From Deltaproteobacteria bacterium (GTDB lineage Bacteria > Bdellovibrionota_C > UBA2361 > SZUA-149 > JADLFC01), in assembly GCA_020845775.1 (NCBI GenBank), contig JADLFC010000095.1, positions 1 through 41,355 of the forward strand: 41,355 nt of DNA. Reading direction: 5' to 3'. The notes beneath the pieces were generated by a model. It saw only the letters and a program-made list of their open reading frames with translations. It did not search any database and was not told the DNA's origin. This document shows positions 3,127-38,500 of this stretch, one piece after another (position 1 is the first letter of the stretch; each line of letters opens with the position of its first letter). Made by a program: the position numbers and the translations under genes.

Positions 3127-3254
3127 TTTATAGCATTTACAAAAAGGATTTTTGTAAATGCTATAAACAGCAAGTGCGTAAGCACTTGCCAATAAACAAC
3201 AAATACCGTTTCAAAAAAGTAAAATATTTAACTTACTTTTTGGAAACGGTATAG
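3127..3254 (+). repeat. Three-hairpin intergenic repeat, copy 1
   Basis: Hairpin 1 has perfect 19-bp arms (3127-3145 and 3149-3167) with loop GGA. Hairpin 2 has 8-bp arms GCAAGTGC/GCACTTGC (3170-3177 and 3182-3189) with loop GTAA. Hairpin 3 has 20-bp arms (3203-3222 and 3233-3252) around a 10-base loop, with one mismatch at 3213. The same 126-base layout recurs at 38373-38498 with six base differences, and identity continues for two more bases to 3254. Four of the six differences form two compensated pairs in hairpin 1. The element fills most of the scpB-rluB gap and ends 26 bases before the rluB start. No T-run follows any stem, so it is not a typical intrinsic terminator. Its role is unknown: ERIC/MITE-like repeat or cis-acting RNA. 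Confidence 0.9.
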
Positions 3255-38300: not shown

Positions 38301-38336
38301 TGCGACAATACTTGCGACAATACTTGCGACAATGCT
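38301..38336 (+). repeat. Three 12-base tandem repeats
   Basis: Units TGCGACAATACT (38301-38312), TGCGACAATACT (38313-38324) and TGCGACAATGCT (38325-38336). The third differs by one base. They lie 37 bases upstream of the second three-hairpin element. A repeated protein-binding site or slippage product is possible. Confidence 0.9.
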
Positions 38337-38372
38337 CGCTAGACTTATGTAGTTGAAATTATTAACAAACAT

Positions 38373-38500
38373 TTTATGCCATTTACAAAAAGGATTTTTG
38401 TAAATGGCATAAACAGCAAGTGGGTAAGCACTTGCCAATAAACAACAAATACCGTTTCCAAAAAGTAAAATATTTAACTTACTTTTTGGAAACGGTATAG
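38373..38500 (+). repeat. Three-hairpin intergenic repeat, copy 2
   Basis: Hairpin 1 has perfect 19-bp arms (38373-38391 and 38395-38413) with loop GGA. Hairpin 2 keeps seven pairs (38416-38422 with 38429-38435). Hairpin 3 has perfect 20-bp arms (38449-38468 and 38479-38498) around the loop AATATTTAAC. Compared with copy 1 (3127-3254) there are six substitutions in 126 aligned bases and no gap. In hairpin 1 an A-T pair becomes G-C and a G-C pair becomes C-G. Orientation relative to the downstream gene is the same in both copies. Confidence 0.9.

Follow-up and report, generated by a model that had tools for sequence, protein, structure and literature searches.

Intergenic three-hairpin repeats in a deltaproteobacterial genome: a probable orphaned MITE family whose stems change in pairs

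Described hairpin repeats and the two copies in the window

RUP of Streptococcus pneumoniae, a MITE derived from IS630/Tc1-mariner, is short, gene-less, AT-rich, intergenic and strongly folding, and MITEs of this type carry terminal inverted repeats with TA at the termini (PMC2229807). Terminal TA is typical of bacterial MITEs in general (PMC2229807), and TA is also the target of IS630 elements, which duplicate it on insertion (PMC2170065). Likewise, the ERIC repeats of enterobacteria (IRU, RU-1) are about 127 bp long and intergenic, with inverted ends that include TA (PMC2229807). REPINs and BIMEs, which are associated with a REP-associated tyrosine transposase (RAYT), are paired intergenic palindromes with compensatory changes (PMC3116915). 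A TATA-ended MITE of Candidatus Thiomargarita nelsonii is found in many intergenic hairpin-forming copies with TATA(G) ends (PMC4853749). Mobile intergenic hairpins are also described as double-hairpin or repetitive hairpin-forming elements of mitochondria (PMC2800124).

The element reported here resembles RUP, ERIC, the REPINs and BIMEs, the T. nelsonii MITE and the mitochondrial elements in the structural features named for them, and it is unlike each of them in others. Unlike RUP-type MITEs, it has another end sequence, no resident IS630 gene was found, and each of its ends forms a complete palindrome by itself, the third hairpin lying between the two. Unlike ERIC, it consists of three separate hairpins, and nothing matching it was found in 5,426 genomes of E. 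coli, a carrier of ERIC, which agrees with the statement of a preliminary description of this DNA that the sequence is not ERIC. The T. nelsonii MITE, the parent element of which was not found there either (PMC4853749), is linked to a group I intron and was set against the present element by description and not by sequence. The double-hairpin elements of PMC2800124, for their part, belong to organelles. The element is probably a non-autonomous MITE of IS630/Tc1-mariner type in which the paired changes arose mainly from template switching. The family appears to be unlisted, and the kind of element is one already known.

The window, the whole stretch of 41,355 nucleotides that was analysed, contains two copies with the following parts:

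3127..3254, forward strand: copy A including border bases, in the scpB-rluB gap
3129..3130: left TA of copy A, putative target-site duplication (most copies have TATA at each end; nested insertion L107/L110)
3131..3251, forward strand: putative mobile unit of copy A, bounded by its left and right TA (from the TA duplication; equal length in 45/45 measured copies)
3252..3253: right TA of copy A, putative target-site duplication (borders and nested insertion)
3127..3167, forward strand: hairpin 1 of copy A, 19 bp with a 3-nt loop GGA (folding, copy alignment)
3170..3189, forward strand: hairpin 2 of copy A, 8 bp with a GTAA loop (folding, copy alignment)
3203..3252, forward strand: hairpin 3 of copy A, 20 bp with one mismatch (folding, copy alignment)
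38373..38500, forward strand: copy B, upstream of fabD
38375..38376: left TA of copy B, putative target-site duplication (borders and nested insertion)
38377..38497, forward strand: putative mobile unit of copy B (constant copy length)
38498..38499: right TA of copy B, putative target-site duplication (borders)
38373..38413, forward strand: hairpin 1 of copy B, in which one A-T pair of copy A is G-C and one G-C pair is C-G (folding)
38416..38435, forward strand: hairpin 2 of copy B, 7 bp, one pair fewer than in copy A (folding, copy alignment)
38449..38498, forward strand: hairpin 3 of copy B, 20 bp, fully paired (folding, copy alignment)

The terminal inverted repeats are formed by the outer arm of hairpin 1 on the left, TATA(G/C)CATTTACAAAAAG, and by the right arm of hairpin 3 on the right. 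Copy A lies 2 bp past the scpB stop and upstream of a pseudouridine synthase gene, and fabD begins 17 bp downstream of the end of copy B. The two 128-bp copies align without gaps and are mismatched at exactly six positions (copy A/copy B: 3132/38378, 3133/38379, 3161/38407, 3162/38408, 3177/38423 and 3213/38459). Four of the six make up the two co-varying pairs of hairpin 1; one costs copy B a pair in hairpin 2, and one is the mismatch within hairpin 3 of copy A. The gapless pair, its six differences, the two paired changes and the stem lengths of 19, 7-8 and 20 bp had all been given correctly in the preliminary description. Predicted RNA folding energies are -53.3 and -58.6 kcal/mol (z -12.7 and -13.8) for the two copies; no shuffled sequence is predicted to fold as well, and the native sequence is far stronger on either strand. 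Just 5' of copy B, at 38302-38337, there are three tandem 12-mers resembling GCGACAATACTT, two of them exact.

Copies, ends and nested units in the genome

The genome that includes the window (2.57 Mb in 189 contigs, about 96% complete and fragmented) has 114 matches to the core of hairpin 3 at up to 3 mismatches, against 0 for a reversed control. Copies with hairpin 2 were extracted in 97 cases, of which 55 had both flanks, 18 only the left and 24 only the right; the one-flank copies are explained by contigs that often end inside a copy. Two such contig-end copies may be halves of one insertion, and hence the extracted copies represent between 79 and 97 insertion sites. The copies are nearly identical, occur in both orientations between unrelated flanks and align without gaps, the length being the same in all 45 that were measured. 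With a length of 128 bp (below about 200 bp), no gene, 97 dispersed copies and terminal inverted repeats, the element has several of the features by which bacterial MITEs are recognised.

Of 46 copies with sufficient flank, 34 are entirely outside predicted reading frames, and the other 12 mostly overlap short frames (<110 codons) or only the edge of a gene; the two copies inside longer frames are L020 and L108. Insertion into terminators is seen in a few clear cases (L010, L019 and L109), with no convincing overall excess. The preliminary description had proposed that a genuine structured element would be present in many intergenic copies with co-varying stems, and the copies are indeed numerous, mostly intergenic and co-varying in their stems, far beyond what two copies could show by chance. 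The further copies, the terminal inverted repeats, the solo hairpins and the inverted loops were not part of that description.

No match was obtained among plasmids and none among viral contigs, and the phages gave one 36-bp match at E 0.4 and nothing similar. Among the species-representative genomes the sole exact-pattern match, on one contig of Pelagibacter, was treated as chance. A reading of the hairpins as attC was dropped on inspection.

The outer ends common to the copies are TATACC... and ...GGTATA, with TATAGC or other single changes in some, and they are inverted repeats of one another (left TATACCATTTACAAAAAG; right, the complement of TATACCGTTTCCAAAAAGTAA). TATA is found at most copy borders, with T favoured in the left flank and G in the right flank. 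The same borders, TATACC...GGTATA, enclose solo units, either hairpin 3 alone (52 bp) or hairpin 1 alone (37 bp). One solo 52-bp hairpin (L181 843-894, G000:C33) has one arm of the hairpin 3 type and one of the hairpin 1 type, and it adjoins a degenerate DDE_Tnp_1 fragment. Two contig ends, L110 and L107, bear copies that share two unusual variants; if joined, they would place an element within an older TATACC hairpin, in the form CATT-TA[TACC...GGTA]TA-CCAAAGAG. This one joined pair suggests that the TA target is duplicated on insertion, and two more nested right borders (L014 and L055) fit a TA target. A transposase supplied in trans would recognise the outer inverted repeats TATACC(A/G)TTT(A/C)CAAAAAG... 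and would insert the element at TA dinucleotides with duplication of the TA. Each end is a complete palindrome and hence would be able to exist as a lone hairpin, and the 128-bp form would consist of two such end-hairpin units flanking hairpin 2.

Paired stem changes and loop inversions

Compensatory base changes are usually read as strong evidence for a functional RNA. In 58 aligned copies of the element, 8 pairs have changed on both sides against 1.4 in shuffles, and none of the 500 shuffles was as high. When each kind was counted once in 90 copies, there were 9 kinds of double change (4/38 twice, 5/37, 6/36 twice, 7/35, 9/33, 81/122 and 86/117) against about 0.06 expected from independent hits at the observed one-sided rate. 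Several of them are A-T to C-G or C-G to G-C, without a G-U intermediate. Given the low divergence between copies, the partner site is unlikely to have been hit independently by a further mutation. Short-read assemblies can homogenise repeats. Mixing of known copies cannot account for double changes seen in a single copy, whereas it could produce the four hybrid copies (G7 with G35), which may be assembly chimeras.

The double changes could be taken to mean that the element is a structured RNA, with hairpins for mRNA stability or regulation that are under selection for pairing and are dispersed by transposition. This agrees with the strong covariation, which extends from the window's family to the hairpins of a relative of the same order (G002); in G002, 7 pairs are doubly changed against 1.1 in shuffles, most of them from one diverged copy (L164). 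Both window copies, moreover, are on the coding strand, between or just ahead of genes. However, 29 of 46 copies have the same direction as the gene downstream of them, which is not a significant bias (p = 0.10), and hence there is no sign that the transcribed strand matters. Loops are inverted or altered in several copies, and one-sided changes that break stems are common, affecting 0.68% of paired against 1.13% of unpaired sites. One-sided changes are therefore only mildly rarer in stems (~1.7-fold, p = 0.02), which means that any selection against unpaired stems can be no more than modest, and the difference leaves room for weak selection on pairing. Search against Rfam returned only a tRNA in the window and nothing credible in the relatives. 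Selection on a transcript is thus an unlikely account of the family, and from the preliminary suggestion of an undescribed repeat family or structured RNA the first half stands, as these are repeats with no Rfam match, and the second is not supported. The copies may nevertheless affect mRNA locally, as other MITEs are known to do.

Inversions of the loops are of two kinds. In hairpin 1, inversion has turned the GGA loop into TCC in 5 copies, which represent two stem backgrounds; in hairpin 3, it is the interior that is inverted, and the 3 copies concerned have differing hairpin 1 types. These changes also bear on whether the GGA loops act as decoys that bind and titrate CsrA. Most copies have GGA as the loop of hairpin 1, several GGA loops are present in the elements of G002, and csrA is present in both genomes. 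Such a role is very hard to reconcile, however, with GGA being on one strand only while insertions go both ways, with its loss in about 11 copies (5 through inversion), and with the single GGA per element in the window's genome, and it is considered the least probable of the readings. In G002 and in the window's genome, csrA adjoins a FliW-like gene (L178 and L179; translation inspected).

Template switching between inverted repeats is described as homogenising the arms and inverting the spacers (PMC8604942), and PMC8794818 gives the signature likewise, with loop inversion listed. The excess of paired arm changes together with the loop inversions matches this signature of hairpins maintained by template switching. 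During DNA synthesis, a switch of template within a hairpin would copy a mutation of one arm to the opposite arm and could also invert the loop, and such switching by the polymerase would be the main source of the covariation. The covariation is real, yet it is weak evidence for RNA, and arm-to-arm copying of DNA explains it better than transcript selection does. It is improbable that the hairpins are instead rebuilt at each move, from a folded single strand with one arm templating the other, in a transposition step that has not been described; if they were rebuilt during movement, the palindromy and the loop inversions would be by-products of transposition and not of ordinary replication errors.

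Relatives and the source of the transposase

The nearest relatives that were compared are at the level of the same order. The end pattern TATACC(A/G)TNNNCAA(A/G)AAGTAA, allowing up to 2 mismatches, was frequent in 2 of 32 genomes tested, with 94 sites in G002 and 100 in a genome of the same class but another order (G042), whereas the reversed pattern gave 0-1 per strand. In G002, a left and a right TATACC unit enclose chains of at least 5 hairpins, and modules are present or absent among copies. For example, L143, L149, L161 and L164 are chains of ~250-450 bp with interchangeable modules between TATACC and GGTATA units, and in L164 the stems are kept though both arms have changed. An IS3-like element, with a visible orfA start and the end TGAACCTCCCCCGA..., appears to be inserted within a TATACC element of G002 (C9, L147).

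In G042, the ends are paired ~200 bp apart and represent MITEs. Two longer end pairs in that genome enclose broken DDE_3 genes of the IS630/Tc1-mariner class (E 5e-22 and 1e-15):

L195 981-1835: element of 855 bp enclosing a broken DDE_3 gene
L196 1791-2664: element of 874 bp enclosing a broken DDE_3 gene

The ends of the present element are identical to those of these two elements at ~17 of 19 bases, and through this similarity its assignment to the IS630/Tc1-mariner class is probable, though not proven. DDE_3 had no match in the window's own genome, and the family therefore looks orphaned. In G002 DDE_3 is represented only by a 54-residue remnant, and no intact transposase with matching ends was found in the window's genome or in any relative searched. 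An apparently intact IS630-type transposase (a 346-codon frame) with TATA-starting inverted ends (TATAGTAAAGACAGAAAGAAATTTCCG) is present in another genome (G029 C110, L222); it was rejected as the source because its ends are different (TATAGTAAAGAC...). The one degenerate DDE_Tnp_1 fragment of the window's genome (C33:954-1205), beside a solo hairpin, was likewise rejected, as it has no matching ends.

The genome does carry one RAYT-like Y1 gene, and given that REPINs are intergenic palindromes with compensatory changes (PMC3116915), the element might be considered REPIN- or BIME-like and moved by this RAYT. This is very unlikely, as the tandem palindromic repeat that flanks the gene is a different one, no copy of the element lies in the 2.2 kb around it, and the ends of the element match those of IS630-type elements instead. 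The flanking repeat of this sole RAYT-like gene (L170 919-1043, G000:C62) consists of GGAGTAACGGCGTTCCAGCT twice and GGAAACACTGGAACGCCGAGGATGTCC twice and is probably the REP family that belongs to this gene.

Through this probable orphaned MITE, hairpin-chain repeats of a bacterial class are linked to IS630-type transposons, which have apparently been lost in two of the three genomes. Within one genome, dozens of near-identical copies have accumulated paired changes and loop inversions without clear selection on a transcript. The family hence offers a natural test set of how far arm-to-arm copying of DNA mimics the covariation of RNA, and a caution for covariation-based discovery of RNAs in repeats.
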